Shown piece by piece: positions 6,747 through 25,986 of a stretch of DNA of 64,000 nt. Made by a program: the position numbers and the translations under genes. This DNA comes from Tistrella mobilis KA081020-065 (GTDB lineage: Bacteria; Pseudomonadota; Alphaproteobacteria; Tistrellales; Tistrellaceae), in the NCBI RefSeq assembly GCF_000264455.2, contig NC_017956.1:541501-605500 (forward strand). The letters are read 5' to 3'. Position 1 is the stretch's first letter; each line of letters begins with the position of its first letter. The notes below the pieces were generated by a model that was not told where the DNA came from, ran no database searches, and saw only the letters and a list, made by a program, of their open reading frames with translations.

Positions 6747-7265
6747 ATGGACCCGTTCATCGGAGAGATCCGCATTTTCGCCGGCGGCATAGTGCCAACC
6801 GGCTGGGCCCCCTGCGAGGGCCAACTGATGTCGATCCAGCAGCACCAGGATCTCTTTGCGCTTCTGGGCGATCGCTATGGCGGCGACGGCCGGACATATT
6901 TCGCGTTGCCGGATCTGCGCGGCCGCACGCCCGTCTGCATCACCAGCCAGCCGGTTCAGGGGGTGAGCTACAGTATCGCCCAGACGGCCGGCGTCGAGGG
7001 CGTCCTGCTCGCCGCCTCTGAAATTCCGGCGCACGACCATCCGCTGGCCGCTGTCTCGACCGCGGCCTCTTCGGTCTCGCCGTCGGGGGAGGTCTTCGCA
7101 TCGGCGCAGCCTGCGGTCTATGCCGCGGGTGGCGGCAACACCATTCCCCTTGCCGCCGGGTCCGTCACCTCGGTCGGTGACGCCGGTACGCATGAGAACC
7201 GCCAGCCGGGTCTTGCGCTCTTCTATTGCATCGCGACCACCGGCAACTGGCCGCAGCGCAGCTGA
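6747..7265 (+). CDS. Tail-collar (MdpB-like) protein, paralogue 1
   Basis: A 172-residue protein. The N-terminal segment reads FIGEIRIFAGGIVPTGWAPCEG and continues to YGGDGRTYFALPDLRGRTPV, the phage tail-collar/microcystin-dependent-protein signature. A Ser/Ala/Gly-rich beta region follows and the C-terminus is THENRQPGLALFYCIATTG, the usual end of this family. The start was chosen for the strong AAGGAGGA ribosome site 6 bases upstream; an earlier in-frame ATG lacks one. It is the first of three tandem paralogues. The domain is known from phage fibres, but chromosomal stand-alone copies are common and have no settled function. Confidence 0.88.
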   Translation: MDPFIGEIRIFAGGIVPTGWAPCEGQLMSIQQHQDLFALLGDRYGGDGRTYFALPDLRGRTPVCITSQPVQGVSYSIAQTAGVEGVLLAASEIPAHDHPLAAVSTAASSVSPSGEVFASAQPAVYAAGGGNTIPLAAGSVTSVGDAGTHENRQPGLALFYCIATTGNWPQRS

Positions 7266-7284
7266 CGCCGATCGGGAGAGCCTC

Positions 7285-7833
7285 ATGTACAAGTATCTCG
7301 GCGAGATCCGGCTCTTCGCCGGCGACGTCGCGCCATCCGGCTGGGCCTTCTGCAACGGCCAGGCCATGTCGATGACCGAATATCCTGCACTCTATACCGT
7401 GCTGACCACGAAATACGGTGGCGACGGCATCAAGACCTTCAATCTTCCGGATCTGCGGGGCCGGATCCCCGTCCATATCGGCCAGGGGCCGGGTGTGGAC
7501 AGTTACTACCGTCTGGGCCAGACCTTCGGGGAAGAGACGGTGCCCCTGACCACGCAGCAGATCCCGCCGCACAGCCACAGCTTCGAGGTCGCAGCGACCA
7601 CGGCTGACGCTACGGCGCCCGCCGGTGCAATGCTGGCCGAAGCGCCCGTGCAATCGGGGTTCACCGGCCTTTATACCGATGCGCCGCTTCAGCCCGGCAC
7701 CACCGGTGCCCTGGCACCCCAGGCGATCGGCAGCACCGGCGGTGGTCAGGCGCATCCCAACATGATGCCGTCCACCGCGATCAACTACATCATTGCCATC
7801 ACCGGCAGCATCGCCACCGCGGCGACATCCTGA
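7285..7833 (+). CDS. Tail-collar (MdpB-like) protein, paralogue 2
   Basis: A 182-residue paralogue of its neighbours: YLGEIRLFAGDVAPSGWAFCNG at the start, YGGDGIKTFNLPDLRGRIPVH in the collar, and PNMMPSTAINYIIAITG at the end. GGGAGAG precedes the ATG. It starts 19 bases after the first copy, so the two are co-transcribed. The conserved collar ends and divergent middle suggest a common trimeric or beta-rich scaffold with different exposed loops. That is inference from the domain family. Confidence 0.88.
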   Translation: MYKYLGEIRLFAGDVAPSGWAFCNGQAMSMTEYPALYTVLTTKYGGDGIKTFNLPDLRGRIPVHIGQGPGVDSYYRLGQTFGEETVPLTTQQIPPHSHSFEVAATTADATAPAGAMLAEAPVQSGFTGLYTDAPLQPGTTGALAPQAIGSTGGGQAHPNMMPSTAINYIIAITGSIATAATS

Positions 7834-7846
7834 AGCAGGCACCACC

Positions 7847-8380
7847 ATGGCAGATGCTTTCACCGGAGAAATCCGGGTCTACAGCTTCGACTATGCCCCG
7901 CAGGACTGGGCCTTCTGCAATGGCGGCAGGCTGCTGATCGATCAGAACAAGGCCCTGTTCTCGGTGATCAAGAGCCTTTACGGCCCGGCGGACGGGACGT
8001 TGTTCTATCTTCCCAATCTGCAGGGGACCGCGCCGATGGGCGCGGGGCAGGGGACCGGCCTTACCAATCGGACGCTCGGCAGTATGACCGGCACCGTCTC
8101 GGTCACGCTGACCACGGCGCAGCTGCCGGCGCATACGCACGGCATTCAGGTCGATACGTCGACCACGGCCACGATCCAGACCACGCCCACGGCCAATGTC
8201 TCGGTCATCGCCACGCCGGTCTCGGGCGATGTCTTCGCGCCCTGTGATCAGACGGCGGCCGTGACCCTGGATGTCGGGGCGATCGGCACGACCGGCGGGG
8301 GCCAGCCGCATGAGAACCGCTCCCCCCTGCTCGCCCTGAACTTCTGCATCTGCCTCACGGGCGTCTATCCCGGCTCGTAA
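7847..8380 (+). CDS. Tail-collar (MdpB-like) protein, paralogue 3
   Basis: A 177-residue third copy: FTGEIRVYSFDYAPQDWAFCNG, then YGPADGTLFYLPNLQGTAPMG, then HENRSPLLALNFCICLTG. The collar is more divergent (LPNLQG for LPDLRG). The middle is Thr-rich. It follows paralogue 2 by 13 bases and is closed by a strong hairpin. No sheath, baseplate, holin or recombinase gene is near, so a prophage remnant is not supported. Confidence 0.87.
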   Translation: MADAFTGEIRVYSFDYAPQDWAFCNGGRLLIDQNKALFSVIKSLYGPADGTLFYLPNLQGTAPMGAGQGTGLTNRTLGSMTGTVSVTLTTAQLPAHTHGIQVDTSTTATIQTTPTANVSVIATPVSGDVFAPCDQTAAVTLDVGAIGTTGGGQPHENRSPLLALNFCICLTGVYPGS

Positions 8381-8439: not shown

Positions 8440-10167
8440 TCAGTCTTGCCGGACCAGCGGCAGGTAGTGATGGACCTGGCGCATGGCCACCAGATCCTTG
8501 CGGCGCACGACATTGGTCGGATAGGGCGAGCCCGGCAGCGTGCCGGTGTCGATGGTGGCGGTCACCAGGCCTTCGCCTTCGGGAATGAAGGCTTCGCGGC
8601 GGGGGAAGGCGAAGCTGTCGGGACCGAAGATGCCGCTCTTGCCGGCGAAGCCCTTGGCCTCGTCGATGTGGTTAGCGGCGACCAGCCAGACATTGTTCTC
8701 GCCCGCCCGCACCCGGAACAGCAGCCAGTGATGCGGATCGGCGCCGGTCGGGATCGGCGGGTTCTGCGCCACTTTGCTGCCCGGATGGCCGAAGGAGATC
8801 CGCCCTGCGATGGCGGCCGGTGCCGCGATCACGTCGACCCCGCGCAGCGCCAGGACGCGGCCGGCCTCGGGGAAAGCGAGGTCATGGCCGATCAGCAGGC
8901 CGAGCCGCCCGAAGGGCAGGTCGAACACCGCCCAGTCGTCACCGGCCGTCGCCCAGCCGGCCTCGGCGGTGGTGAGATGGATCTTGCGATAGCGGCCGAC
9001 GATGCCCTCGGGGCCGACCAGAACCGCGGTCGAATACCGGGCCTCGCCCTCGGCCTCGATCAGGCCGGCAACGATGTGGAGGCGGTGGCGGATGGCGATG
9101 TTGACCAGCCGTGCCACCTCCGGTCCGTCGAGCCCGACGGCATTGGCGGGGGCGGTTCCGGTCAGCGCATATTCCGGCAGGACCAGCAGCACGGACCCCT
9201 TCGCCGAGGCCTCGGCTGCATACCGGGTTGCGCGGTCCAGATTGGCGGCCGTGTCGTCGCCGGGTGTGAACTGCGCGGCCGCAACCTCGAACACGCCACC
9301 CTGGGGCAGGGCGCGGTAGCCATAGAGGCGGAAGAAGTCGAGCGGATTCCAGAGGAAGGTGTTGGTCATCAGCTCGGCATAAAGCGCGGGCCGGCGCTGG
9401 GCGAAGACCGGCTCGCCCAGAACCTTGCGCGCCCGGGCGCGGGCCAGGTCGACCGTGCCGTAGACGACGCCGTCGCCGCAGTCGAGCACCGCTTCCATGC
9501 TGCCGTCGGGCCCCAGGATGCAGCTGCCGCCCGAGAATTCGACCGTCCGCTCCAGCCCCCAGCGATTGGCCTCGATCACATAGCAGCCGTTCTCGAAGGC
9601 ACGGGTGATCCAATAGGGCGCCGGGCAGCGTTCGGCCAGCCAGTTGCTGATATGGCAGATCACATCGGCTCCGCCGAGCGCGTCGAGACGGGCGGTCTCG
9701 ATGAAATGGATGTCCATGCAGACCAGCATGGCGATGCGGCCGATCGGGGTCTCGAACACCGCATGCTCGTCGCCGGCCACCGCCCATTTGGGCTCGGCGA
9801 TGTAGGAATGGCTTTTGCGGTGGCGGCCGATCACGCCCTCGGGGCCGATCAGCACCGCGGTGTTGTGATAGAGGTTCGTTTCAGGATCGACCTCGGGCAT
9901 GCCGATGACGATGTAGCAGTCATAGGCATGGGCCAGCACCGCGAAACGGTCGGTGGTGGGGCCGGGCACCGCTTCGACGAAGGGGGCGACTTCGGCGCGG
10001 TCGTACCAGCAATAGCCGGTCGTCCCCATCTCGGGCGTCACGATCAGCTTCGCGCCGCCCTGTGCGGCCGTCTCTACCAAAGCGAGGAGACGGGTGATGT
10101 TGCGCTCCTTCTCGTAGAGCGTCGGCTCGAACTGGACGGCGGCGACCTTGTAGGACGTCTCGGTCAT
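8440..10167 (-). CDS. Tandem-domain carbon-nitrogen hydrolase (nitrilase superfamily), second domain degenerate
   Basis: 575 residues made of two nitrilase-fold domains, about 1-285 and 292-575. Domain 1 has the full Glu-Lys-Cys triad: Glu46 in VTPEMGTTGY, Lys118 in RHRKSHSY, Cys150 in MLVCMDIHF. Domain 2 keeps Glu332 (VLPEYALTG) and Lys395 (RYRKIHL), but the Cys position is Gly427 in LLIGHDLAFPE, so it cannot act by the usual thiol mechanism. It is the last gene of the amiCR-urtABCDE unit, 46 bases after urtE. It probably hydrolyses the imported amide or related C-N compound to ammonia and an acid. Substrate is inferred from context only. Confidence 0.88.
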   Translation of the reverse strand: MTETSYKVAAVQFEPTLYEKERNITRLLALVETAAQGGAKLIVTPEMGTTGYCWYDRAEVAPFVEAVPGPTTDRFAVLAHAYDCYIVIGMPEVDPETNLYHNTAVLIGPEGVIGRHRKSHSYIAEPKWAVAGDEHAVFETPIGRIAMLVCMDIHFIETARLDALGGADVICHISNWLAERCPAPYWITRAFENGCYVIEANRWGLERTVEFSGGSCILGPDGSMEAVLDCGDGVVYGTVDLARARARKVLGEPVFAQRRPALYAELMTNTFLWNPLDFFRLYGYRALPQGGVFEVAAAQFTPGDDTAANLDRATRYAAEASAKGSVLLVLPEYALTGTAPANAVGLDGPEVARLVNIAIRHRLHIVAGLIEAEGEARYSTAVLVGPEGIVGRYRKIHLTTAEAGWATAGDDWAVFDLPFGRLGLLIGHDLAFPEAGRVLALRGVDVIAAPAAIAGRISFGHPGSKVAQNPPIPTGADPHHWLLFRVRAGENNVWLVAANHIDEAKGFAGKSGIFGPDSFAFPRREAFIPEGEGLVTATIDTGTLPGSPYPTNVVRRKDLVAMRQVHHYLPLVRQD

Positions 10168-10213: not shown

Positions 10214-10909
10214 TCACACCGCCATATGGCGGTGGACCAGATCGTCGGTCAGCGTCTCGATCGGGCCACATGCGGCGATGCGGCCCTTTTCGAGCATCAC
10301 GAAGCCATGGGCGACCGCGCGGACGAAGTCGATGTTCTGCTCGACCAGGATCACGGTCAGCCCGTGCTCGCGGTTGAGCCTGGCGATCACCGCGTGGATC
10401 TCTTCCACGATCGAGGGCTGGATGCCCTCGCTCGGCTCGTCGAGCAGCAGCAGCTTGGGGTTGGCGGCCAGCGCCCGGGCGATGGCGAGCTGCTGCTGCT
10501 GCCCGCCCGAGAGCACGCCGCCGCGGCGGTCGTAATTCTCGGGCAGATAGGGAAACAGCTCGGGCACCAGTGCCGGCACCTCGATGCGGCCGTCGGTGCG
10601 GGCGAAGGCGCCCATCAGGATGTTTTCGTGGATGGTGAAGTCGGGAATGATCTCGCGGCCCTGGGGCACGTAGCCGATCCCGGCCCGCGCCCGGCGGAAG
10701 GTCGGCTCGTGGCCGATTTCGGTACCGTCGAGCCGGATGCTGCCCGACATGCGGTCGGTCAGGCCCATGATCGTCTTCATGAGCGTGGTCTTGCCGGTGC
10801 CGTTGCGGCCCAGCACCGCGGTGATCCGGCCGGCGGGCGCTTCCAGCGCCACGCCCTGCAGCACATGGCTGCGGCCGTAATAGCTGTCGATCGCGGACAT
10901 CTGCAGCAT
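10214..10909 (-). CDS. urtE: Urea/amide ABC transporter ATP-binding protein UrtE
   Basis: 231 residues. Walker A is GRNGTGKTT, the signature is LSGGQQQQLAIARAL and Walker B runs into LLLDEPSEGIQPSIVEEI, the last being typical of UrtE rather than LivF. It powers the UrtBC permease with UrtD on the cytoplasmic face. The ATG overlaps the urtD stop (ATGA), so the two are translationally coupled. Similar proteins serve short-chain amide uptake (FmdF-like), and no urease genes are present here. Confidence 0.93.
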   Translation of the reverse strand: MLQMSAIDSYYGRSHVLQGVALEAPAGRITAVLGRNGTGKTTLMKTIMGLTDRMSGSIRLDGTEIGHEPTFRRARAGIGYVPQGREIIPDFTIHENILMGAFARTDGRIEVPALVPELFPYLPENYDRRGGVLSGGQQQQLAIARALAANPKLLLLDEPSEGIQPSIVEEIHAVIARLNREHGLTVILVEQNIDFVRAVAHGFVMLEKGRIAACGPIETLTDDLVHRHMAV

Positions 10910-11673
10910 CAGCCGATCCCCTTCGTGCCGAGATAGGCGGCGCGCACATCCGCATTGGTCTCGATCTCGGCGACCGTGCCCTCGGCCAGAACCCGGCCCA
11001 GATGCAGTACGGTGATCTGGGTCGCGATCTCGCGGACGAAGGCCATGTCGTGCTCGACCACCAGCAGGGTGTGGCTGCCCTTGAGGTCGTTGATGATCCG
11101 CGCGGTCTTGAGCGTCTCGGCCTGGGTCATGCCCGCGGTCGGCTCGTCGAGCAGGATCACCCGCGGGCTGCGGACCACCAGCAGGCCCAGCTCCAGCCAC
11201 TGGGTCTGGCCGTGGCTGAGGAAACCCGCCACGGTCTCGGTCTCTTGTGCAAGGCCGGTCAGCTCCAGCACCTCGTCCACGCGCCTTCGGCCGGCGGCAT
11301 CCAGGCCGAAGCCCAGATTGGCGCGGACGCTGGGCGCGCGGAAGGCGGCGACCTCCAGATTGCGGCGCACGGTCAGCTCGCGGAACACGCTCGGGATCTG
11401 GAACTTGCGCCCCAGCCCGGCGCGGGCGATGCGGTGTTCGGGCCAGTTGGTGATCTCGGTGTCGTGCAGATGCACGCGGCCGCGGCTCGCCCGGGTGCGG
11501 CCCGAGATCAGGTCCATCAGCGTGGTCTTGCCGGCACCATTGGCGCCGAGCAGCACCCTGAGTTCGCCGTCGGCCACCGTGAGGTTCACCTCGTCCACGG
11601 CCCTGAAGCCGCCGAAGGAGACGCCGAGCCCGTCGAGGGTCAGGGCGATGCCGTGTCTGGTTCCGGCGGTCAT
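10909..11673 (-). CDS. urtD: Urea/amide ABC transporter ATP-binding protein UrtD
   Basis: 254 residues. Walker A is GANGAGKTT, the signature LSHGQTQWLELGL is the UrtD version (Gln-Trp-Leu-Glu), and Walker B is VILLDEPTAGM. It is the second nucleotide-binding subunit of the Urt-type importer. It overlaps urtC by 4 bases at its start and urtE by 1 base at its end, so it sits in a tightly coupled operon. Confidence 0.93.
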   Translation of the reverse strand: MTAGTRHGIALTLDGLGVSFGGFRAVDEVNLTVADGELRVLLGANGAGKTTLMDLISGRTRASRGRVHLHDTEITNWPEHRIARAGLGRKFQIPSVFRELTVRRNLEVAAFRAPSVRANLGFGLDAAGRRRVDEVLELTGLAQETETVAGFLSHGQTQWLELGLLVVRSPRVILLDEPTAGMTQAETLKTARIINDLKGSHTLLVVEHDMAFVREIATQITVLHLGRVLAEGTVAEIETNADVRAAYLGTKGIG

Positions 11674-12788
11674 TTCCGGCCCTCCGCCTTGCGCGTCGCA
11701 CCGCTCACCCGGTCGATCAGGTCATGGGCGAGGCCGCCCAGGCCGCGCGGCATGAACAGCACCACCAGGACGAAGATCAGCCCGATCACCGCTTTCCAGG
11801 CCTCGACCAGGGCCTCGGTCTCGCTGGCGCCGGCCTCGATCATGTTGATGAGGATGGCGCCGATGCAGGCGCCGAGCAGGCTGGAGCGGCCGCCGACCGC
11901 CGCCCAGACCACCATGGTGATCGAGAAGGCGAGGTCCATGAAGGTGGGGGAGGCGAACTCCGCCACCACGACGTAGAGCATGCCGGCAAGCCCGGCGATC
12001 CCGGCCGAGACCGCAAAGAAGAAGATCTGATAGGCCGGCACGTCGAAGCCCAGATAGCGGGCGCGGGTGGCGTCGTCGCGGATCGCCTGCAGCACCAGGC
12101 CGGCGCGGGTTTCGACCAGCAGCCGGGTGGCGGCCAGCACCACCAGCAGGGTGATGGCGACCAGATAATAGGTGGCCTGCGAATAGGGATCGAATTCGAA
12201 GCCGCCGATGGTCAACCAGCCGAGATCGGTGAGCCCGTTGAAGCCGTTGGTGAAGGGCTGGGCGTCGATGACCAGCAGCCGGACCAGCAGCACCAGCGCA
12301 AGCGTGATGATCGAGACGAACACCCCGGCGATGCGTTTGCGGAACACCACCATCCCCAGCAGGAAGGCGACCGTCACCGGCAGGGCCAGCCCCATGAAGA
12401 TGCCGAAGCCCTGAGAGATGAAGGGCTTCCACAGAAAGGACGAACCGGTGATGCAGCAGAGATCCGTGGGCGCGCCCGGCTCGGCATTCCAGAGCATGAA
12501 GTCGGGCACCGGCGTGTCCGAGCCCTGGGCAAGGCTGGTCGGGCTCGCGAGTTTCAGCGACATGGCGAGCATGTAGGCGCCGAAGCCGAAGAACAGGCCC
12601 TGGCCGAGATTGAGGATGCCGGCATAGCCCCAGGAAAGCGAGATGGCCACGCCCAGCATGCCGAAGACCAGGTACTTCGCCATGCGGTTCAGCCAGAAAT
12701 CATCCAGGAAGGCCGGGGCCACCAGAACCAGGCCGGCGAAGGCCAGATAGGCGAGGAGGGTGGTGGTGGTCGAGAGACGCATCTGCAT
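11670..12788 (-). CDS. urtC: Urea/amide ABC transporter permease UrtC
   Basis: 372 residues with many hydrophobic helices from about residue 10 to 345. The sequence YLVFGMLGVAISLSWGYAG and the conserved LQAIRDDATRARYLGFDV loop, which contacts the ATPases, mark the LivM/UrtC family. It is longer than LivM because of an extra region near residues 80-115 (DTPVPDFMLWNAEPG and an NPF/SF stretch) typical of UrtC. Two start codons, 12788 and 12782, are both possible. It follows urtB by 3 bases. Confidence 0.92.
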   Translation of the reverse strand: MQMRLSTTTTLLAYLAFAGLVLVAPAFLDDFWLNRMAKYLVFGMLGVAISLSWGYAGILNLGQGLFFGFGAYMLAMSLKLASPTSLAQGSDTPVPDFMLWNAEPGAPTDLCCITGSSFLWKPFISQGFGIFMGLALPVTVAFLLGMVVFRKRIAGVFVSIITLALVLLVRLLVIDAQPFTNGFNGLTDLGWLTIGGFEFDPYSQATYYLVAITLLVVLAATRLLVETRAGLVLQAIRDDATRARYLGFDVPAYQIFFFAVSAGIAGLAGMLYVVVAEFASPTFMDLAFSITMVVWAAVGGRSSLLGACIGAILINMIEAGASETEALVEAWKAVIGLIFVLVVLFMPRGLGGLAHDLIDRVSGATRKAEGRK

Positions 12789-12791
12789 GGC

Positions 12792-13685
12792 TCAGCGCCC
12801 CTTGAAGGAAAAGAGGCCGGCCGGCTTCACGATGATGATCAGGATCACCACCCCGAAGACGATGGCACGTGCCAGAATGTCGTTGGTGACCGCGGCCGCG
12901 ACCGCGTTGATCTCGCCCAGCATGCCGGCCGAGAGCACCGAGCCCAGCAGGCTGCCGACACCGCCCGCCACCACGACCAGGAAGCCGTCGACCACCATGG
13001 AGCTGCCCATGTCGGGAAAGACGGTCTTGAAGCCCGACATCATCACGCCCGCGACCCCGGCGAGGCCCGATCCGAAGGCGAAGGTCAGGGCATTGACCCG
13101 GGCGACGTCGATGCCCGAGGCGGCGGCCATACGCGGGTTGCGGATGATCGCGCGGACCTGCATGCCGATGCGGGTGCGGTACATGATCGCCCAGGTGAGC
13201 AGGGTCAGCACCAGGGTGACCGCCACGATGAACACCCGGTAGGCGTTGATCGAGCTGCCGGCGATGGTGATCGTGGTCTGCAGGATATGGGGGACGGCGA
13301 CGTTCTGCAGGCCCGGGCCCAGGCCCTGGATGTGGATGCCGAAGAAGCTGAGGCCGAATTCCAGGCGCACCGCCTGCTGCAGCAGGATCGCGATGCCCCA
13401 GGTGGCGAGCAGGGTGTCGAGCAGGCGGCCATAGAGCCGGCGCACCACCACCCGCTCGATCGCCCAGCCGATGGCCGCAGCCGAGAGGAAGCCGAGCGGC
13501 AGGGCCGCGAACAGGCCCAGATCCAGCCAGATGCCGGAGAGCACGGCGGTATAGGCGCCGATCATCACCAGTTCGCCATGGGCCATGTTGATGACCCCCA
13601 TGGCGCCATAGGTGATGGCGAGGCCGAGTGCGACCAGCAGCAGGATCGAGCCCAGGCTGAGGCCGATGAAAAGGATGTCGAGCAT
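12792..13685 (-). CDS. urtB: Urea/amide ABC transporter permease UrtB
   Basis: 297 residues, a LivH/UrtB-type permease. The N-terminus (LDILFIGLSLGSILLLVALGL) and the motif GAMGVINMAHGELVMIGAYTA are diagnostic. The start at 13685 was preferred to an in-frame ATG 17 codons upstream: GGAG lies 10 bases before it and the hydrophobic helix begins at once. Some UrtB proteins carry a long periplasmic N-terminal extension; this one does not, which is closer to amide/branched-chain permeases. Confidence 0.92.
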   Translation of the reverse strand: MLDILFIGLSLGSILLLVALGLAITYGAMGVINMAHGELVMIGAYTAVLSGIWLDLGLFAALPLGFLSAAAIGWAIERVVVRRLYGRLLDTLLATWGIAILLQQAVRLEFGLSFFGIHIQGLGPGLQNVAVPHILQTTITIAGSSINAYRVFIVAVTLVLTLLTWAIMYRTRIGMQVRAIIRNPRMAAASGIDVARVNALTFAFGSGLAGVAGVMMSGFKTVFPDMGSSMVVDGFLVVVAGGVGSLLGSVLSAGMLGEINAVAAAVTNDILARAIVFGVVILIIIVKPAGLFSFKGR

Positions 13686-13775
13686 GTGGGACGGACTCCA
13701 CCCGTTGTCGGCCGCCGCAAAGGACCTGTGGGACACACGAAAGGCCGGAACCTTCGCAGCGGCCGGAATTGGGCG

Positions 13776-15029
13776 TCAGCCCTTCAGCTTGGCGCTGTCG
13801 AGGCCCTTGGCGGTGCAGAACAGGTTGTCCGCGGTCTCGCCATAGGCGGCATAGGGCAGCGGGCGGATCGGCTCGGGATAGGCGTTGACCACCTTGCTCT
13901 GGCCGTCGGCCTGCCACTGGCCGATGCGCGGGGTCAGGTAGGCGTGCAGATTGTCGCCGTCGATGGTGACCTTGCCGCCCGGCGCGTCATAGCTCTGGCC
14001 GCCGATCGCGGCACGGATGTCGTCGGTCTTGACCGACCCCGCCTTCTCGGCCGCCTGCTTCCACAGGAAGACCTGGAAATAGGCGGCTTCCAGCGAGTGA
14101 TAGGTGAGGGCGGCCGGGTCCTTCACGAAGGCGCGATAGCGCTCGATGAAGGCCTTGTTGGCGGGGGTGTCGAGCGACATGAAATAGGGGAAGGATGTGT
14201 AGCTGCCGGCGGCGTATTCGGCGCCCATGGCCGCGATCTCGATCTCGGAGGTCACGGTCGCGCAGATCGGCACATCGGCCTGGGACATGCCCTGGTTCTT
14301 GTACTCGCGATAGAAGGCGACGATCGAGTCGCCGACCACGTTCGAGAGTACCACATCCGCGCCGGATTCCTTGATCTTGCGGACCATGGTCGCCCATTCG
14401 GAATGGCCGAGTTCCAGATACTCGTCCGCCACCCATTCGGCACCGGCCTCTTCGATCAGCTTCTTGCTGACCTTGGCCATCTCACGCGGATAGACATAGT
14501 TCGAGCCGACGATGAAGAACTTCTTCTTGCCCAGCGTCTTGACGATCCAGGGAATGTAGTTGCCCAGCTGCTGGTTCGGCACCGCACCGGTATAGACCAC
14601 ATTCTTCGAGCATTCGAAGCCCTCGTAATGGGTCTGGTAGAACAGCATGCCGTCGCGGCGCTCGAACAGCGGCAGCACCGCCTTGCGGCTGGCCGAGGTG
14701 TGGCAGCCGAAGACCGCGTTCACCCGGTCGCGGACCAGCAGCTTCGAGGCCTTCTCGCTGAAGGTCTTGGGGTCCGAGGCGCCGTCCTCGACGATCACCT
14801 CGACCTGGCGGCCGAGCACGCCGCCCTGGGCGTTGACTTCCGAGACCGCCATCATCACGGCATCGGCCAGCATCTTCTCGACGATCGAGAGACCGCCGGT
14901 CTGGGAATAGAGCGCGCCGACCTTGATCGTGTCGGCGGCAAGCGCCCGGCCGATCAGCGAGGGGGCGGCCACGGCGGCAAGTGAGGCGGCAGCGGTGGAT
15001 TTCAGCAGCGAGCGTCGGGTGATGCTCAT
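13776..15029 (-). CDS. urtA: Urea/amide ABC transporter substrate-binding protein UrtA (Tat signal)
   Basis: 417 residues. The N-terminus TRRSLLKSTAAASLAAVAAP is a twin-arginine signal, so the protein is exported folded. The mature part has the UrtA/FmdD/AmiC fold with landmarks YSQTGGLSIVE, FGCHTSASRKAVLP, YQTHYEGFECS, VGSNYVYPREM and the end PYAAYGE. It is a close structural relative of the cytoplasmic sensor encoded upstream (16113-17276), which shares SNYVYP and YEGFE. Translation begins about 280 bases downstream of an attenuator. Ligand is urea or a short amide; context (hydrolase, AmiC/R) favours an amide. Confidence 0.9.
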   Translation of the reverse strand: MSITRRSLLKSTAAASLAAVAAPSLIGRALAADTIKVGALYSQTGGLSIVEKMLADAVMMAVSEVNAQGGVLGRQVEVIVEDGASDPKTFSEKASKLLVRDRVNAVFGCHTSASRKAVLPLFERRDGMLFYQTHYEGFECSKNVVYTGAVPNQQLGNYIPWIVKTLGKKKFFIVGSNYVYPREMAKVSKKLIEEAGAEWVADEYLELGHSEWATMVRKIKESGADVVLSNVVGDSIVAFYREYKNQGMSQADVPICATVTSEIEIAAMGAEYAAGSYTSFPYFMSLDTPANKAFIERYRAFVKDPAALTYHSLEAAYFQVFLWKQAAEKAGSVKTDDIRAAIGGQSYDAPGGKVTIDGDNLHAYLTPRIGQWQADGQSKVVNAYPEPIRPLPYAAYGETADNLFCTAKGLDSAKLKG

Positions 15030-15309
15030 GGGGTCGGTCTCCCGATGACGGTGAGGTGAAGCCTCGGGCGTTTTCGCCCGTGATGTTTGGCGCGCGTGGC
15101 GCAGGTCGGAGCCGTTCAAAAAAGGGCCGGAAGACCGGGGGTGTCCGGTCGGCATCCGGGGGGAGGAAGGCCGTCGGTGGAGGGATTTCACGCCTGTCGG
15201 ACAGAGCATGAGGCGCACTTCTCCCGTTCTGCGTTCAAGTAGAACGCAGTGGGTTCTGCCTCGTTTTCTGGTCGAGGGTGAGTGCCGACAGCCCTGTCGG
15301 CATGGGCAT

Positions 15310-15348
15310 AAAAAAACCTCGCAGACCCCGGAAGGCGGGGTCGCGAGG
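15310..15348 (-). terminator. Intrinsic terminator (attenuator) in the urtA leader
   Basis: On the minus strand CCTCGCGACCCCG, a 5-base loop, then CGGGGTC-T-GCGAGG and seven T. Thirteen base pairs with a single bulge make it a very stable intrinsic terminator inside the operon, 281 bases before urtA. It would block the transporter genes unless antitermination occurs. Confidence 0.88.
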
Positions 15349-15383
15349 CATCCTTGCCACGTGCCGGTCGAACATCCCCGTTC
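15344..15383 (-). promoter_or_regulatory. Putative ANTAR-target RNA (two hairpins, P1 and P2)
   Basis: On the minus strand P1 is GAAC-GGGGAU-GUUC (15370-15383). Eight bases later P2 is CGUGGC-AAGGAU-GCCUCG (15344-15361), a stem with one U-U mismatch and a hexaloop with A at position 1 and G at position 4. The 3' arm of P2 is the 5' arm of the terminator that follows, so the two are mutually exclusive. This matches the known ANTAR antitermination design. The P1 loop begins with G instead of A, a weak point. Confidence 0.65.
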
Positions 15384-15477
15384 TTCCGGCGGCAGAACGG
15401 CGTGGTCTGAATTTATACCGGGTGGCCCGATTTCAGAGGACGCCGACTGCTGCTCAGATCTTGAGCATGCGCGAATG

Positions 15478-16086
15478 TTAATCAGCTTTGCGGGGCAGGG
15501 TCAAGAGGTCCTCGGTCTTCACGATCGCGGCGGCGATTTCTTCCATCGGCACCCGGCGCGCCATGGCCTGGCGGCGGATGAACTGGTGCGCCTCGTTCTC
15601 GCTCAGGCTCTTCGATGCCATCAGGATCGCCTTGGCGCGGGCGAGCGTCTGTTCGCCGACCATCTTGCGGCGCAGCTTGCGCGCTTCCTTCAGCAGCCGC
15701 TGGCGTTCCAGCCACAGGCTGCGGGCGATGGCGAGGTTGGTGAGAAGCCCGAAGGGCTTGAGCGGCTTTTCCAGCACCGCGAAGGCACCGCTTTCCAGCA
15801 CGATCTGGAGCGTGCCCGGATCCTCGTAGCCGACGATGGCGATGATCGTCGGCGGCACCGGCCCCAGAGATTTCAGCAGGCGCTCGATCCCTGCCCGGTA
15901 TTCGACCGCGATGGTCAGCAGCACCACTTCGGCATTGGCCGGCAATTCCGCCGGCACCGGCCAGAGCGTGGTGACCATGCAGCCGATACGGCGGAGATGA
16001 TCGACCAGGAAGGCGCCCTCCTCGTCCGGCGGATGGACCACCAGGACCTTGAGGCCGAGAAGATCACGCAGCAGGGCGACCGACAC
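15478..16086 (-). CDS. AmiR/NasT-type ANTAR antitermination regulator
   Basis: 202 residues with a GTG start. Residues 10-125 form a receiver-like domain (KVLVVHPPDEEGAFLVDHL) but the phospho-acceptor position is Thr in EVVLLTIAVEY, so it is a pseudo-receiver like AmiR. A coiled linker (ERQRLLKEARKLRRKM) leads to a C-terminal ANTAR domain (ARAKAILMASKSLSENEAH and AMARRVPMEEIAAAIV), which binds paired hexaloop RNA. It follows the AmiC-like gene by 26 bases. By analogy with Pseudomonas AmiC-AmiR, the sensor should hold it inactive until ligand binds. Two matching RNA targets lie in this operon. Confidence 0.9.
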   Translation of the reverse strand: MSVALLRDLLGLKVLVVHPPDEEGAFLVDHLRRIGCMVTTLWPVPAELPANAEVVLLTIAVEYRAGIERLLKSLGPVPPTIIAIVGYEDPGTLQIVLESGAFAVLEKPLKPFGLLTNLAIARSLWLERQRLLKEARKLRRKMVGEQTLARAKAILMASKSLSENEAHQFIRRQAMARRVPMEEIAAAIVKTEDLLTLPRKAD

Positions 16087-16112
16087 GTGGGGGCGCTCCC
16101 GGGAAAGGAGGG

Positions 16113-17276
16113 TCAGAGGCCTGCCACCGGCAGGCCATCGGCCGCCGGGGCGTCGAGACGATATTCCAGCATGTACGGGTCCGGGCGGACCCGGGTCTTC
16201 GGGTCATACACCAGGTCGAACTGACCGGCGGCCGTCACCCGGCCGACCTTGGGCCAGAGATGGGTGTGGTTGTTGTCGCGCTCGATCCGGATCCGGCCCT
16301 GAGGGGCATCCACCTCGACCTCGTAGAGCTGGGGCAGCAGATCCTGCGCCCGGTCGCTTTCGGCCCGGGCGAGGGCGGCTGCATAGAGATGGACCTGGAA
16401 ATACGCCGCTTCGGCCGCCGCTGCAATCACCGCATCGGGGCCGAAGCGGCGCCGGAAGGCCGCCACGAACCTGTGGTTGGCGGGGGTGTCGATCGCGGCG
16501 AAATAGGGCGAGACGCCGATATGGCCCTCGGCGATGCCCGGGCTCATCTGGGCGATTTCGGCCTCGCTGGTCGACTGGCTGGCGATCGGCATGGTGGCCG
16601 GGTCGAAGCCGGCGGCACGATAGGCTTCGTAGAACCGGGCGATGCCGTCGCCGACCACGGTCGAATAGATCACGTCCGGCCGCGTGCGCCGGATCTGGGC
16701 GATGACCTCGTCCATGTCGATTTCGTCCACCGCCAGCGGCACATACATCTCGTGCAGCACGGTGCCGCCGGATTGCAGATAGAGATCGGCGATGATCCGG
16801 TTGGATTCGTAAGGGTAGACGTAGTTGGAGCCCACGATGAACAGCCGCTTGCCGTAATGGGCGGTCAGATAATTCACCAGCTGGACCGAGTTCTGGTTGG
16901 GGCAGGCGCCGGTATAGATGCAGCTGCGGGAATATTCGAAGCCTTCATAGAGGGTGGGGTAGAACAGCAGCGCCTTGCGCGCCTCCACCACCGGCAGCAC
17001 GGCCTTGCGGGTGCTGGACATGTAGCAGCCGAAGATCACCGGCACCCGCTCCACATCCAGCAGGTGTTCAGCCTGATCGCGATAGAGCCTGGGCGTCGAG
17101 GCGGGGTCCAGGACCACCGGCTCGATCTGCCGGCCTGCAATGCCGCCCGCGGCATTGATCTCTTCGATCGCGAGCAGCGTGCCATGGCGCTGGGTGCGTT
17201 CCACTGCGGCGGTGACGCCGGTGTCGGAGAACAGCACGCCCACGCGCCAGCTATCCGGTATCGATCTCTTGCCCAT
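16113..17276 (-). CDS. AmiC-like cytoplasmic amide sensor / UrtA paralogue
   Basis: 387 residues with the periplasmic-binding fold of UrtA and AmiC but no signal peptide: the start MGKRSIPDSWRVGVLFSDTG enters the fold directly. Landmarks are FGCYMSSTRKAVLPVVEARK, YPTLYEGFEYS, YTGACPNQN and VGSNYVYPYESNR. The family senses short amides and controls AmiR by direct binding. The start at 17276 was chosen for length; another ATG lies 4 codons upstream, abutting the terminator U-run. The gene is preceded by its own attenuator, suggesting autoregulation. A gene divergent to it encodes an MFS protein. Confidence 0.88.
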   Translation of the reverse strand: MGKRSIPDSWRVGVLFSDTGVTAAVERTQRHGTLLAIEEINAAGGIAGRQIEPVVLDPASTPRLYRDQAEHLLDVERVPVIFGCYMSSTRKAVLPVVEARKALLFYPTLYEGFEYSRSCIYTGACPNQNSVQLVNYLTAHYGKRLFIVGSNYVYPYESNRIIADLYLQSGGTVLHEMYVPLAVDEIDMDEVIAQIRRTRPDVIYSTVVGDGIARFYEAYRAAGFDPATMPIASQSTSEAEIAQMSPGIAEGHIGVSPYFAAIDTPANHRFVAAFRRRFGPDAVIAAAAEAAYFQVHLYAAALARAESDRAQDLLPQLYEVEVDAPQGRIRIERDNNHTHLWPKVGRVTAAGQFDLVYDPKTRVRPDPYMLEYRLDAPAADGLPVAGL

Positions 17277-17288
17277 GGCCCTGCACAT

Positions 17289-17327
17289 AAAAAAAGCCCC
17301 CGGCCGGCACGAAATGCCGACGGGAGC
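17289..17327 (-). terminator. Intrinsic terminator (attenuator) before the AmiC-like gene
   Basis: On the minus strand GCTCCCG-T-CGGCA, loop TTTCG, TGCCG-GC-CGGGGGC, then seven T. It ends a few bases before the first possible start codon of the AmiC-like gene, so readthrough is required for expression of the regulators and probably of the whole operon. Confidence 0.88.
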
Positions 17328-17364
17328 TGCCCTGCTCACAATCACATGGCGGAGTCTGCCCGCC
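17322..17364 (-). promoter_or_regulatory. Putative ANTAR-target RNA upstream of the AmiC-like gene
   Basis: On the minus strand P1 is GGCGG-GCAGACU-CCGCC (17348-17364). Eight bases later P2 is GUGAGC-AGGGCA-GCUCCC (17322-17339), one mismatch in the stem, with a hexaloop carrying A1 and G4. The P2 3' arm is also the 5' arm of the following terminator. The spacing and overlap are the same as in the urtA leader. The P1 loop reads as 7 or 5 bases, not exactly 6. Confidence 0.65.
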
Positions 17365-17549
17365 TCTCCGAACAGGCTACGCCCAATGACGGTGCGTTGC
17401 AACATGATCGGCGGTGCCTCCGCATGGCTGCCATGCGGGGCGGGTTGCATCGCGGGCTCGACAGCGGCCCCCCGGCGCCGGCCATAATCCGCCCAATGAA
17501 ACGCGCGCGCGGCAGTGCACCGGCGCGCCTGGGTGTGGGAGGCCGGATC

Positions 17550-18737
17550 ATGAGTGCGCGCGACCCTGCAACGCCGGACGAGGACCGGATCCCCTGGCGG
17601 GCGGCTGCGGCGGCCTTCGCCTCGGTGCTGATCGGCCTGGGGCTTGCCCGCTTCGCCTATACGCCGATGATCCCGGCCCTGGTCGAGGGCGGCTGGTATG
17701 ACGGCGCGGCAGCGGCCAGCCTGGGAGCGGTCAATCTGGGGGGCTATCTGGCCGGAGCCCTGGCGGCCGCACCGCTGGCCCGCCGGGTGCCGGTCGCCAT
17801 GCTGATCCGGATCGCGATCGCGCTCACCGTCATCTCCTTCGCCGCCTCTGCGGTGCATCTGGGCTATGGCTGGCTGGCGGTCTGGCGCGCGATCGGCGGC
17901 ATCACCGGCGCCATCCTGATGATCGTCGCCGTGCCGGCGGCGCTGTCGGCGACACCGATCCGGCGGCGCGGCCGGGTGGCCGGGCTGGTCTTCACCGGTG
18001 TGGGCCTGGGCGTGGTGGTCTCGGGTCAGCTGGTGCCGATCGCAGCAGGTTTCGGCGTGGTCGAGGCCTGGGGCATGCTGACCATCTTCGCCCTGGTGCT
18101 GGGCGTTGTCGGCTGGAGCGGCTGGCCGCGTGAGGCAACGGGACCGGCGGTCGGGGGCGGCCATCTGGGCGTGCCGCCGGCAGCCACCGGTGCGGCGCTG
18201 GCGCTGATCGGTCTTGCCTATGCCCTGGATGCCTTCGGCTTCGTGCCCCATACCCTGTTCTGGGCGGATTACGTCGCCCGCACCCTGGGCCTCGGCCTTG
18301 CGGCCGCCGGCGCGTCCTGGAGTCTGTTCGGTCTGGGCGCCGCTTTCGGGCCGATCACCGTCGGGCTGGTCGCCGAGCGGATCGGCTTCGGGCGCACGCT
18401 GGTGGGGGGGCTGGTCATCAAGGGCACCGCCATCGGCCTCGCCGCCTTCACCACCGCCCCCTGGGCATTGGCGGCGAGTGCCGCGGTGGTCGGGCTGCTG
18501 ACGCCGGGCATGGGCACGATGGTCGCCGGGCGGATCACCGAGATCGCGAGCCCGCATCGCCAGCGCCAGGCCTGGGCGGCGATGACCGTGAGCTTCGCGG
18601 TGGCGCAGAGCCTTTCGGGTTTTGCGATGACGGAATGGTATGCGGTGTCCGGCGAGCACCGGCCGCTGTTCATCGCAGGCGCCGTGGCGCTGTTCCTGGG
18701 GGCGATCGCGGCGGCGCTGACGCTTCGCCGACGCTGA
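17550..18737 (+). CDS. YbfB/YjiJ-family MFS transporter
   Basis: 395 residues with about twelve hydrophobic helices. The first helix, AFASVLIGLGLARFAYTPMIPALV, is the hallmark of the YbfB/YjiJ (MFS_4) family. The start was chosen at 17550, with GGGAGG 8 bases upstream; an in-frame ATG at 17496 would add 18 basic residues. It is divergent from the AmiC-like gene, with 273 bases between. Substrate is unknown; it may export a metabolite related to the neighbouring amide system. Confidence 0.85.
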   Translation: MSARDPATPDEDRIPWRAAAAAFASVLIGLGLARFAYTPMIPALVEGGWYDGAAAASLGAVNLGGYLAGALAAAPLARRVPVAMLIRIAIALTVISFAASAVHLGYGWLAVWRAIGGITGAILMIVAVPAALSATPIRRRGRVAGLVFTGVGLGVVVSGQLVPIAAGFGVVEAWGMLTIFALVLGVVGWSGWPREATGPAVGGGHLGVPPAATGAALALIGLAYALDAFGFVPHTLFWADYVARTLGLGLAAAGASWSLFGLGAAFGPITVGLVAERIGFGRTLVGGLVIKGTAIGLAAFTTAPWALAASAAVVGLLTPGMGTMVAGRITEIASPHRQRQAWAAMTVSFAVAQSLSGFAMTEWYAVSGEHRPLFIAGAVALFLGAIAAALTLRRR

Positions 18738-21460: not shown

Positions 21461-21583
21461 CCGCATCACCAGTAAAGGCTGCATATTGTAACCATTCGGT
21501 CGCCTCATGGTCGACAAGTGCAGACGATTGGCCTAGTCTGAATGTAATCCGTGTTTTCGCCACCCGGTGGGACATGCCTGCGC

Positions 21584-23092
21584 ATGAAAACGGACCCGAC
21601 GCTGCCAGAAGATCCGGGCCTGTTTGCCGATATCGTCGACGCCACCCACGACGCGATCGTGGTGATCGACGAACGCGGGATCATCAGGCTCGTCAATCGC
21701 GCGGCGGAGCTGATCTTCGGCTATACGCCTGACGAGCTGGTCGGCCGGAATGTCAGCCTGCTGATGCGATCAGAGGAAGCCGAGGCCCATAACGGCTATC
21801 TGGCCGCTGCCGACAGCGATCTGCGCCGCCGGATCGTCGGCCGCGGCCGCCAGCTGCTCGGCCGGCGGCGTGACGGATCTCCGGTGCCGATCGATCTGGT
21901 GGTCAGCATGCTGCCGCGGCCGGGCGGGACCCGGTTCTATATCGGCACAATCCGCGACCTCTCGGACCGGAAACTTGCCGAGGAAAGCCTGCGCCTCGGT
22001 TTCGAGAGCAGCGGCGTGGGCCAGGCGATGATGTCCCCCGACGGCCGCCTGCTTCGGGTGAACGGGGCGCTGGCCAGAAGTCTTGGGCATGAACAGGGGC
22101 GGCTGATAGGCGGCGATATCCGTGCAATCCTGCATCCCGATGATGTCGAGGCCGCGCATGAATGGCTTGCGGCCATCCGCGCGGGCGGGCGGTTGCGGGA
22201 CGGCATGCGGATCTGCCGTCATGCCGACGGGCGCAAGGTCTGGTTCCGGGTCGCAGGTGCCGTCATCCGGGACGGCAAGGGCCACCATGCGCATTGCATC
22301 GTTCAGTTCGCCGACGTGACGCCCCTGGTCGAAGCCGAGCACCGCCTGACCATGGCACTGGCCGCGGCCGAGACCGCGAGTGCGGCCAAGACGGCCTTCC
22401 TCGCCCATATGAACCACGAACTGCGCACGCCGCTGAATGCGGTGATCGGCTTTGCCGAACTGCTGATCGCGGGCCTGCACGGGGCGCTGCCGCCCCGGCA
22501 GCGCGATTATGTGGATGCCATCCATCAGGCGGGCTGCCGGCTGCTCGCGATCGTGGACGACATCCTCGACCTCACCCGGCTGGACGATCCGTCGATGCTG
22601 GAGACCCAGGACGTCGATGTGAGCGGGGTGGTGCGCAAGGGCCTGGAACGGGCGGCCGTGGCCGAGGGGCGGGCGGATGTGGTCGTCACCGTCACCATCG
22701 ATCAGGGTGTGACCCTGTCGGGCGATTCCGCCGCGACGGTCCGGATCATCGCCAATCTCGCCTCCAATGCGATCAAGTTCTCAGGCCCTGGCGGGCGGGT
22801 CGCCATCGAAGCCAGCCGCTATGACGGCGATGCCGGTCATGGGGTGATCATCCGGGTTCGGGACGAAGGGCCCGGCATGCCGGCGGGGCTCGCCGCGGAT
22901 GTCGGCTGGCCGTTCGAGACCGGCGGCGGGGTTCTGTCGCGCAACCATGGCGGCGCCGGGCTAGGCCTCGCCATCGTGCGCCGGCTGGTGATGCTGATGG
23001 GGGGCACGATCTCGGTCGATACCAGTACCGGTGGCGGCACCACCGTCGTCGTCGATCTGCCGGACCGGCAGCGGGTAGGGCAGGTCGCCTGA
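21584..23092 (+). CDS. Soluble PAS-PAS sensor histidine kinase, paralogue 1
   Basis: 502 residues without membrane segments. PAS1 spans about 10-130 (DATHDAIVVIDERGIIRLVNRAAE, GTIRDLSDRK) and PAS2 about 135-260. The HisKA box is HMNHELRTPLNAVIGFAELL with the phospho-His. The ATPase domain has the N box NLASNAIKF, G1 DEGPGMP and G2 GGAGLGLAIVRRL. No receiver domain or adjacent response regulator. The ATG at 21584 was chosen; a GTG 11 codons upstream is possible. It is highly similar throughout to the kinase at 24490-25986. Confidence 0.87.
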   Translation: MKTDPTLPEDPGLFADIVDATHDAIVVIDERGIIRLVNRAAELIFGYTPDELVGRNVSLLMRSEEAEAHNGYLAAADSDLRRRIVGRGRQLLGRRRDGSPVPIDLVVSMLPRPGGTRFYIGTIRDLSDRKLAEESLRLGFESSGVGQAMMSPDGRLLRVNGALARSLGHEQGRLIGGDIRAILHPDDVEAAHEWLAAIRAGGRLRDGMRICRHADGRKVWFRVAGAVIRDGKGHHAHCIVQFADVTPLVEAEHRLTMALAAAETASAAKTAFLAHMNHELRTPLNAVIGFAELLIAGLHGALPPRQRDYVDAIHQAGCRLLAIVDDILDLTRLDDPSMLETQDVDVSGVVRKGLERAAVAEGRADVVVTVTIDQGVTLSGDSAATVRIIANLASNAIKFSGPGGRVAIEASRYDGDAGHGVIIRVRDEGPGMPAGLAADVGWPFETGGGVLSRNHGGAGLGLAIVRRLVMLMGGTISVDTSTGGGTTVVVDLPDRQRVGQVA

Positions 23093-24420: not shown

Positions 24421-24489
24421 ACGCAAGGGCCGCGCCTCCGTAGATTGCGGCATCTCCGACTTGCTGCTTTGCGGAAACCTGCCCCTGCC

Positions 24490-25986
24490 ATGCAGACCGG
24501 ACCTGCCATCTCCCACGATCCGGCGCTGTTCGCGGATATCGTGGACGCCACGCATGATGCGATCGTCGTGATCGATGATCACGGCATCGTGCAGTTCGCC
24601 AACCGTGCCACCGAACTGATCTTCGGCTACAGCCCGGTCGAGCTGGTCGGGCAAAGCGTCAATCTGCTGATGCGGCCCGAAGAGGCGGCGGGCCATGACC
24701 GCCATCTGCGCACGGTCGATCCCGACATTCGCCAGCGGATCATCGGCCGGGGCCGGCAATTGACCGGCCGCCGCCGCGACGGCACGCCGGTGCCGATCGA
24801 TCTGGTCGTCAGCATGCTGACCCGCAGCGACGATGTCCGGCTTTATATCGGCACGATCCGTGACCTGTCGGACCGGAGGCTGGCGGAAGAAAGCCTCAGG
24901 CTGTCCTTCGAAAGCACCGGCGTCGGTCAGGCCGTGGTCGGGCTCGACGGGCGGATGCTGCGGGTCAATCTGGCGCTGGCGCGCAGCCTGGGCCGCGAGG
25001 CGGCAGCCCTGGCCGGGGCGGATTTCCGCAGCCTGATCCATCCCGACGACCTGGCGGCCGCGGAACGCTGGCTGGCAGCCGCCCGGGTCGACGGCCGGCC
25101 GCTCGACGGCATGCGCCGCTACATTCATGCCGAAGGCCATATCGTCTGGTTCCGGGTGGCCGGCGCCGTGATCCGCGATGCCGACGGCCATCCCGCCCAT
25201 TGCATCACCCAGTTCGCCGATGTGACGCCGTTGGTCGAGGCGGAGCGCCGTCTGACCCGGGCGCTCGCCGCCGCCGAGACCGCGAGTGCGGCCAAATCCG
25301 CTTTCCTGGCCCATATGAACCACGAGCTGCGCACGCCGCTCAATGCTGTGATCGGCTTTGCCGAACTGCTGATCGAAGGGCTGCACGGGCCCTTGCCGCA
25401 GTGCCAGCGCGACTATGTCACCGCCATTCATCAGGCCGGGCGGCGACTGCTCGCCATCGTCGACGACATCCTGGATCTCACCCGCTTGGACGACCCGTCG
25501 CTGCTGGCGTCCGAGGCGGTGGATCTGGACCAGATCGTGCGCCAGGGGCTGGATCGGGCGGCAGCGGCCGAGGGCCGGCCCGATGTCACGGTCAAGGTGG
25601 CGATCGCCCCCGATGCGGCGCTTGCCGGCGATGCCACGGTGATGGTGCGGATCATCGCCAATCTGGCGTCGAACGCGATCAAGTTCGCGCGGCCCCGGGG
25701 TCAGGTCCGCATCGAGGCGATGCCGGGCACGGCCGGGGTGGTGATCCGGGTCGAGGATGACGGTCCCGGCATGCCCGATGCGCTGGCCCGCGACATCGGC
25801 CGGCCCTTCGAGACCGGCGGCGGCGTGCTGTCGCGCAACCATGGCGGGGCAGGGCTGGGCCTTGCCATCGTCCGCCGGCTGGTCACGCTGATGGGCGGCC
25901 GGATCCGGGTCGAAACCGGCCGCCTGGGCGGTGCGATGGTGATCGTCGACCTGCCGGACCGGCATGTCGACGAGCGTGCGGCCTGA
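24490..25986 (+). CDS. Soluble PAS-PAS sensor histidine kinase, paralogue 2
   Basis: 498 residues with the same plan as the kinase at 21584-23092: PAS1 (DATHDAIVVIDDHGIVQFANRA), PAS2, HisKA box HMNHELRTPLNAVIGFAELL, N box NLASNAIKF, G1 DDGPGMP, G2 GGAGLGLAIVRRL. Long stretches are identical between the two, including the RDLSDR and DILDLTRLDDPS regions, so this is a local duplication. The PAS1 region and the middle of the ATPase domain differ most, suggesting different signals. No dedicated response regulator nearby. Confidence 0.87.
   Translation: MQTGPAISHDPALFADIVDATHDAIVVIDDHGIVQFANRATELIFGYSPVELVGQSVNLLMRPEEAAGHDRHLRTVDPDIRQRIIGRGRQLTGRRRDGTPVPIDLVVSMLTRSDDVRLYIGTIRDLSDRRLAEESLRLSFESTGVGQAVVGLDGRMLRVNLALARSLGREAAALAGADFRSLIHPDDLAAAERWLAAARVDGRPLDGMRRYIHAEGHIVWFRVAGAVIRDADGHPAHCITQFADVTPLVEAERRLTRALAAAETASAAKSAFLAHMNHELRTPLNAVIGFAELLIEGLHGPLPQCQRDYVTAIHQAGRRLLAIVDDILDLTRLDDPSLLASEAVDLDQIVRQGLDRAAAAEGRPDVTVKVAIAPDAALAGDATVMVRIIANLASNAIKFARPRGQVRIEAMPGTAGVVIRVEDDGPGMPDALARDIGRPFETGGGVLSRNHGGAGLGLAIVRRLVTLMGGRIRVETGRLGGAMVIVDLPDRHVDERAA

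Follow-up and report, generated by a model that had tools for sequence, protein, structure and literature searches.

The closest described counterparts of the locus reported here are leaders controlled by ANTAR proteins, in which hairpins carrying a hexaloop with A at position 1 and G at position 4 (A1/G4) compete with an intrinsic terminator. In the Pseudomonas aeruginosa amiE leader/AmiC–AmiR system, ligand-bound AmiC releases AmiR (partial text of PMC3369931). Our locus shares with this system an AmiC-like sensor, an AmiR-like ANTAR protein and a P2 hairpin that overlaps an intrinsic terminator. The described Pseudomonas target leader precedes amiE (partial text of PMC3369936), whereas the leaders found here precede the sensor gene and an Urt-type transporter, and the P1 hairpin of the sensor leader, unlike that of amiE, lacks an A1/G4 hexaloop.

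The Enterococcus faecalis eut leaders, which are controlled by EutV, resemble the present case in that several leaders serve one ANTAR protein and in the mutual exclusion of P2 and terminator. Both hexaloops are A1/G4 there, and a P1 with A1/G4 is needed for full EutV induction (according to an extract of PMC3369931); the sensor is a histidine kinase, in contrast to the ligand-binding AmiC-like protein here. The Klebsiella oxytoca nasF leader differs in that its regulator, NasR, is a one-component NIT-ANTAR protein and that the P1 rule is kept. The P2 of our sensor leader, with its C:G closing pair, A1 and G4, fits the NasR SELEX consensus, and the reported NasR affinity is ~12 µM for a single hairpin versus ~1 µM for the pair (both from an extract of PMC7496416). 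From a EutV–RNA structure, one hexaloop has been argued to be the minimal site, with the dimer visiting hexaloops in succession; the proposal rests on structure and SPR, and the antitermination described with it still used two hexaloops (extract of PMC8934654). One good hexaloop of this kind fits the sensor leader, and the hairpin P3 described below is a further single hexaloop.

Organization of the locus

The window, by which we mean the whole 64-kb stretch of DNA analysed, is part of a 6.5-Mb genome (G000:C1:541501-605500). Its minus strand carries, in order, genes for an AmiC-like sensor, an AmiR-like ANTAR antiterminator, a UrtA-like protein, UrtB, UrtC, UrtD, UrtE and a double nitrilase (Table 1). 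After AmiR, the regulator's next PDB match is the response regulator 6wsh. An AmiC-type sensor is thus adjacent to an AmiR_N–ANTAR protein, the arrangement of an AmiC–AmiR pair. The Pfam ANTAR profile has a single match in the whole genome: this AmiR-like protein, encoded beside the sensor gene and in the same operon as the leader. The sensor gene has a second in-frame ATG at 17288 besides that at 17276.

Elsewhere in the window, two PAS-type histidine kinases on the plus strand (21551-23092 and 24445-25986), 71% identical over 496 positions, flank two open reading frames as a tandem paralogue pair, and three consecutive plus-strand open reading frames at 6678-8380 each contain a phage tail collar domain.

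Table 1. Features of the sensor and urtA leaders and of the genes that they precede
Feature	Position	Strand	Description or evidence
-35-like box, sensor promoter candidate	17397..17402	-	TTGCAA; TTGCAA-17-TAGCCT, 7/12 matches, under the threshold of the ready-made scan
-10-like box, sensor promoter candidate	17374..17379	-	TAGCCT; 36 nt before P2
P1 hairpin, sensor leader	17348..17364	-	GGCGG-GCAGACT-CCGCC; read from sequence, folding
P1–P2 linker, sensor leader	17338..17347	-	10 nt; sequence
P2 antiterminator hairpin, sensor leader	17324..17337	-	GAGC[AGGGCA]GCTC; C:G closing pair, A1 and G4; covariation
Intrinsic terminator stem-loop, sensor leader	17296..17327	-	GCTCCCGTCGGCATTTCGTGCCGGCCGGGGGC; 14 pairs, one bulge; covariation
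Seven T (U tract), sensor leader	17289..17295	-	sequence
AmiC-like amide sensor gene	16113..17276	-	Pfam Peripla_BP_5 5.5e-144; closest PDB match Pseudomonas AmiC (1pea, E 3.1e-109)
AmiR-like antiterminator gene	15478..16086	-	AmiR_N 1.1e-36, ANTAR 1.3e-14; closest PDB match AmiR (1qo0 chain D, E 3.5e-25)
urtA-leader promoter candidate	15475..15504	-	TTGACC-18-TAACAT, sigma-70-like, 9/12 matches; overlaps amiR stop codon
P1, urtA leader	15363..15390	-	extended hairpin, inner GAAC[GGGGAT]GTTC (G1, G4); scan, folding
P2, urtA leader	15347..15358	-	GGC[AAGGAT]GCC; scan
Terminator, urtA leader	15310..15349	-	seven T at 15316-15310; scan
P3 hexaloop hairpin	15283..15302	-	TGCCGAC[AGGGCT]GTCGGCA, A1/G4; scan, covariation
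urtA-like substrate-binding protein gene	13776..15029	-	below NCBIfam cut-off for UrtA
urtB, urtC, urtD, urtE	10214..13736	-	each above its own NCBIfam cut-off
Nitrilase-type hydrolase gene	8440..10167	-	two CN_hydrolase stretches; domain matches

Architecture of the sensor leader

The sensor element spans 76 nt from P1 to the U tract. As the initial annotation described, the AmiC-like gene has its own terminator with seven T, overlapped by a hairpin with the hexaloop AGGGCA (A1, G4). The tetranucleotide GCTC (17327-17324) is common to P2 and to the 5′ arm of the terminator, and the two structures are mutually exclusive by sequence. The P1 loop comprises 7 nt, or 5 nt if a G.U pair closes it. 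The sensor leader differs in sequence from the urtA leader, in agreement with the earlier description, but the statement that hairpin spacing repeats that of the urtA leader holds only roughly: the linker measures 10 nt, compared with 11 nt in the urtA leader, counted from the inner stem of its P1. P2 has 4 pairs in the sensor leader versus 3 in the urtA leader. A promoter between terminator and start codon, raised at the outset as an argument against attenuation, cannot apply, because the ATG lies either directly at the T run or 12 nt beyond it.

The predicted fold of the sensor leader is better than those of all 200 shuffled sequences (z -3.73), with folding energies of -22.9 kcal/mol for the terminator hairpin versus -4.0 kcal/mol for P2. 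P1 and P2 are both present in prefixes of 50, 54, 60 and 64 nt, and P2 is lost from the fold at 70 nt. At 76 nt a P2 of 3 bp coexists with a shortened terminator, and the full terminator forms in the complete leader of 85 nt. In these calculations the terminator is predicted to win over P2 when no protein is bound. Forcing P2 leaves a 10-bp remnant of the terminator stem that ends four bases short of the U tract.

The combination of P2 and an overlapping terminator exceeds chance. Our own scan sought T-tailed hairpins of at least 8 pairs, bulges allowed, together with an overlapping A1/G4 P2. It found 12 T-tailed hairpins on both strands of the 64-kb window, and the ANTAR-type overlap occurs in two of these, the sensor and urtA leaders. 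The same combination appeared in 4/2000 dinucleotide shuffles of the sensor leader and in 3/2000 of the urtA leader. The motif is small and hexaloop hairpins are not uncommon where DNA is GC-rich, so one might suspect a chance hairpin beside a real terminator; with the shuffle result of 4/2000, and with conservation in several genera accompanied by covariation, we find this reading scarcely credible. A ready-made terminator scan listed neither the sensor nor the urtA terminator and found two other sites, with 1.5 expected. Both terminator stems contain a bulge, and we take the rule of that scan to miss bulged stems, which would leave both unlisted. Rfam gave no matches in the window at gathering score, and in the region 15000-17600 two matches far below gathering scores, neither on the sensor leader.

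The 3′ arm of the terminator contains the sequence GGGGG, eight bases before the ATG at 17288 in the window. A translational switch would therefore be conceivable, in which this arm hides GGGGG as a ribosome-binding site and P2 formation frees it. The window T run abuts the ATG, as such a switch would allow, and ANTAR RNAs over ribosome-binding sites have been predicted for actinobacteria, with translational repression by them stated for mycobacteria (extract of PMC8164766). Reading by eye of leaders from Variovorax, Agrobacterium and Rhizobium showed, however, that a Shine–Dalgarno-like sequence follows the T run and is not part of the stem, and that the U tracts are kept. The shared logic is therefore transcriptional, and we regard a purely translational switch as very unlikely, although translation could add to transcriptional control in this genus.

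Relation to ANTAR motif definitions

The P2 hairpin (17337-17324) agrees with the dual-hexaloop motif of Ramesh 2012, which calls for at least 3 bp and an A1/G4 hexaloop, and its 3′ arm is common to the intrinsic terminator, as that motif also specifies. P1, for which the motif likewise calls for at least 3 bp and an A1/G4 hexaloop, does not conform, and a strict scan finds P2 alone. A canonical P1 with A1/G4 was sought in this leader both by scan and by eye, with other registers, 7-nt loops and bulges allowed, and none fits all three leaders of the genus. The sensor leader therefore lies outside the strict dual-hexaloop motif (PMC3369931), because its P1 breaks the A1/G4 rule.

The P1 hairpin is kept with a changed loop in two relatives (L128 and L112). 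A hairpin is present at the place of P1, near the predicted start, in most of the 17 leaders that were folded, with L134 and L143 doubtful; its loop comprises 3 to 8 nt depending on the register, and A1/G4 is rare. A strict P1 was seen among the relatives' sensor leaders only in L040 and L042. The window P2 does agree with the single-hexaloop minimal ANTAR site (Walshe 2022), a hexaloop with G4. Judged by its sequence, this leader may be a naturally occurring example of reliance on P2. Most likely, the sensor element works like an ANTAR attenuator, yet is not a member of the strict dual-hexaloop class.

Conservation of the sensor leader

Relatives were taken from the best 80 of 473 sensor loci in a contig search, together with same-genus and same-species genomes. 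A plasmid collection contributed 17 records, picked for variety from 95 with a close sensor, of which 74 are from Agrobacterium or Rhizobium. The gene order amiC–amiR–urtABCD(E) recurs among these relatives. A P2/terminator leader lies directly before the sensor gene in 24 of the 36 fetched homologues of at least 450 bits, a count that was 23 in the automated scan, from which L044 was dropped as chance-like and to which L037 and L039 were added by eye. Among the 18 best-scoring sensor genes the leader is present in all 18. The 12 close homologues without it include L033, L034 and L043, despite the same gene order. Sensor genes of 380-450 bits gave one chance-like match in 58 (L096), scored by the automated scan alone, which missed 2 of the 24 above; L105, at 376 bits under this limit, also has P2 and terminator before amiC. 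In L134 the automated scan chose a hairpin other than the true P2, and in L062 the start of the sensor gene is misplaced.

Including the window, there are 25 leaders, which reduce to 13 distinct P2–terminator sequences, many of the plasmid copies being near-identical. Among the leaders, automatic P2 picks were replaced for L037, L136, L139 and L148, and the pick for L035 was supplied. A close AmiR is found in 13/398 genomes of a random phylum draw, own genome included, and in 6/385 of a class draw, three of which are the own genome, own species and own genus. For the copy on the plasmid of Agrobacterium C58, a term search in the main text of published papers returned no transcript data on this operon.

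Upstream of the sensor gene in L044, L047, L048 and L145 is a 6-bp A1/G4 hexaloop hairpin, GGAAAC-AGTGNC-GTTTCC, with no T-tailed terminator downstream in L047, L048 and L145; it is possibly another control mode. The matches to the L146 sensor gene and to the L137 urtA are split across two reading frames in the deposited plasmid sequences.

Covariation

The 13 distinct leaders were aligned (alignment A2; L035 is shifted by one column). Pairing amounts to 96.2% in the P2 helix, where both partners change at 2/4 pairs, and to 95.6% in the outer terminator helix, where they do so at 3/7 pairs. These paired percentages were matched by 0/500 shuffles, as were the numbers of cells changed on both sides (4 in P2, 8 in the terminator). 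Covariation scores were matched by 11/500 shuffles for P2 and 0/500 for the terminator; shuffle fractions are not probabilities where sequences are related. Two measures are not above shuffles: the number of pairs changed on both sides (matched by 72/500 for P2 and 39/500 for the terminator) and further pair types (375/500 and 407/500). When the terminator partners are slid by 1-3 columns every whole-structure measure drops; with the P2 partners slid likewise, two versions tie one measure each and the rest are lower.

The arm shared by the two structures is informative at column 13, where T faces A or G in both partners. In L037, L039 and L042 this column is C, and both alternative partners are G. 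Judged from the alignment, changes in the shared arm are accompanied by matching changes in both sequences with which it can pair, in P2 and in the terminator. In the P2 loop, position 4 is G in 13/13 distinct leaders, partly by construction, and the C:G closing pair is present in 13/13, whereas position 1 is A in only 9/13.

A plain attenuator or insulating terminator, which would lower basal amiC transcription and leave AmiR idle here, with the urtA leader as the sole regulated gate, could account for the degenerate P1 and for the leader's absence from 12 of the 36 close homologues. It would not need the conserved P2-making arm, which pairs with both P2 and the terminator. Nor is there anything co-directional directly upstream to insulate, as the neighbour at 17550-18737 is transcribed in the opposite direction. 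We consider this explanation improbable. Conservation and covariation in relatives, with the genome's single ANTAR match adjoining, support what was first proposed from the sequence, an ANTAR-type attenuator directly before the AmiC-like sensor gene.

Model for control by AmiR

The observed anatomy, sequence-based mutual exclusion, conservation, covariation and single ANTAR match are in keeping with the following model. The sensor element is likely to be the leader of amiC–amiR and an ANTAR-dependent attenuator opened by AmiR, with the pair autogenously controlled. From the weak promoter candidate we infer that RNA polymerase starts just upstream of P1. P1 and P2 would fold first on the nascent sensor leader. 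With no signal, the GCTC arm would quit P2 for the strong terminator, and transcription would end at the run of seven U that precedes the sensor gene. By analogy with Pseudomonas AmiC–AmiR, a sensor binding an amide or urea-like ligand would release AmiR. The free AmiR would grip the P2 hexaloop and GCTC would stay in P2; the 10-bp remnant stem being four bases from the U tract, polymerase would read on into amiC–amiR. The same AmiR would open the urtA leader, and hence the transporter and hydrolase genes. With both amiC and amiR behind the switch, control would be autogenous, and the uninduced pair must live on basal read-through. On sequence evidence, AmiR very probably opens the sensor-leader switch, and the pair would control both its own supply and nutrient import.

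With a model built from the sensor leaders (R1), the sensor leader is recovered in each of G000, G001 and G448, by construction at 58.6 bits. One other full-length match, the urtA leader, appears in G000 (22.2 bits, the model having been built without it) and in G448 (23.7 bits), whereas the matches listed for G001 at E up to 1 do not include it. Matches to the terminator part alone reach 22.5 bits, no lower than the urtA leader of G000. In the search of these three genomes for a third AmiR target, in which 150 of about 18,000 first-look candidates were scored per genome, R1 returned weak partial terminator matches only. Only two AmiR targets are seen, at this modest sensitivity.

If the model is right, a ligand-sensing antitermination pair uses an attenuator of its own to gate its synthesis, and this self-gating is conserved among alpha- and betaproteobacteria as well as on large plasmids of Rhizobium and Agrobacterium. 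The two-hexaloop rule for finding ANTAR targets would then miss real ones.

Promoter candidates

The initial annotation placed two gates in series, which is not established. Each leader has a weak promoter candidate (Table 1), and the gates may therefore be parallel, serial or both: if the urtA-leader promoter works they are parallel, and otherwise they are in series. Of the 25 sensor leaders, 22 have a promoter-like -10 box 27-41 nt upstream of P2, 13 of them, many near-identical, at 36 nt; these counts use a lax threshold of 7/12 matches and no shuffle control. Seven rhizobial sensor leaders have a further promoter-like site 4 nt before P2 that overlaps P1 and scores higher in L135. A ready-made promoter scan of 15000-17600 found one site, the urtA candidate, with 0.4 expected, and did not list the sensor promoter candidate. 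Among the 19 urtA leaders scored, window included, a site is present at the amiR end in 5, elsewhere in 3 and in none of the other 11.

A third hairpin in the urtA leader

The urtA leader contains a further A1/G4 hexaloop hairpin, P3, located past the terminator. As scored, its distance from the terminator hairpin is 12 nt in the window and 11-18 nt across 17 leaders. We defined close urtA genes by a score of at least 480 bits, which gave 31 leaders, or 29 once 2 without a scored terminator were set aside. P3 is present in 26/29, versus 0.17 expected from shuffles, a count that includes near-identical plasmid copies. The hairpin was seen in the window and, downstream of the urtA terminator, in L032, L035, L037, L039, L040, L044, L047, L048, L112, L128 and L133-L149. 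L033, L034 and L043 lack it. L096, in which the hairpin is P1, was taken out of the set, and for L040 the terminator end or the place of P3 was set by hand.

In 18 distinct sequences, 6/7 pairs of P3 change on both sides, which 0/500 shuffles reach; further pair types are reached by 18/500. All 18 sequences form the inner five pairs, four of which vary at both partners, though for the most part in a single sequence each; either outer pair is open in 9/18. The closing C:G pair is invariant, though it was not a search requirement, whereas A1 and G4 were required.

P3 would be of no help at the U tract, because it should not yet be transcribed there, which raises the question of why an ANTAR-type hairpin lies beyond an already passed terminator. 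P3 may take over AmiR, counter a later stop or titrate AmiR. One tentative possibility, which we hold to be rather doubtful, is a relay in which AmiR is passed along the hexaloops of the nascent RNA: P2 would suffice in the sensor leader, whereas in the urtA leader P2 would open the terminator and P3 would take over just past it. Through P3, AmiR would then stay on the elongating complex over the 74-359 nt of leader that remain, for example against Rho; alternatively, each read-through mRNA would titrate AmiR via P3. If true, antitermination systems would gain a new component, an ANTAR site located after the terminator. Literature searches of open-licence papers, in the partial texts that these returned, yielded no description of P3 or of a leader before amiC–amiR–urt.

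The idea that P3 is the first hairpin of a lost second attenuator was rejected: the scan shows no second P2/terminator unit in the P3 leaders, and L041 and L108 have tandem units without P3. An argument for Rho from C-over-G bias after P3 was given up as too weak, the bias being present in 13/17 leaders.

Several urtA leaders of relatives contain additional elements. In L041 and L108, two tandem P2/terminator units between amiR and urtA form two gates in one leader, and L097 and L105 likely have tandem units before urtA as well, as read by eye. The urtA-leader P1 of L033, L034 and L043, also read by eye, seems to have a G4 hexaloop, with a T/C mismatch immediately beneath its C:G closing pair. 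A further long hairpin lies between the amiR stop codon and the urtA-leader P1 in L032 and L134 and in L133, L135 and L136, with compensatory differences between relatives, such as GGTCGCATC/GATGCGACC versus GGCTGCATC/GATGCAGCC.
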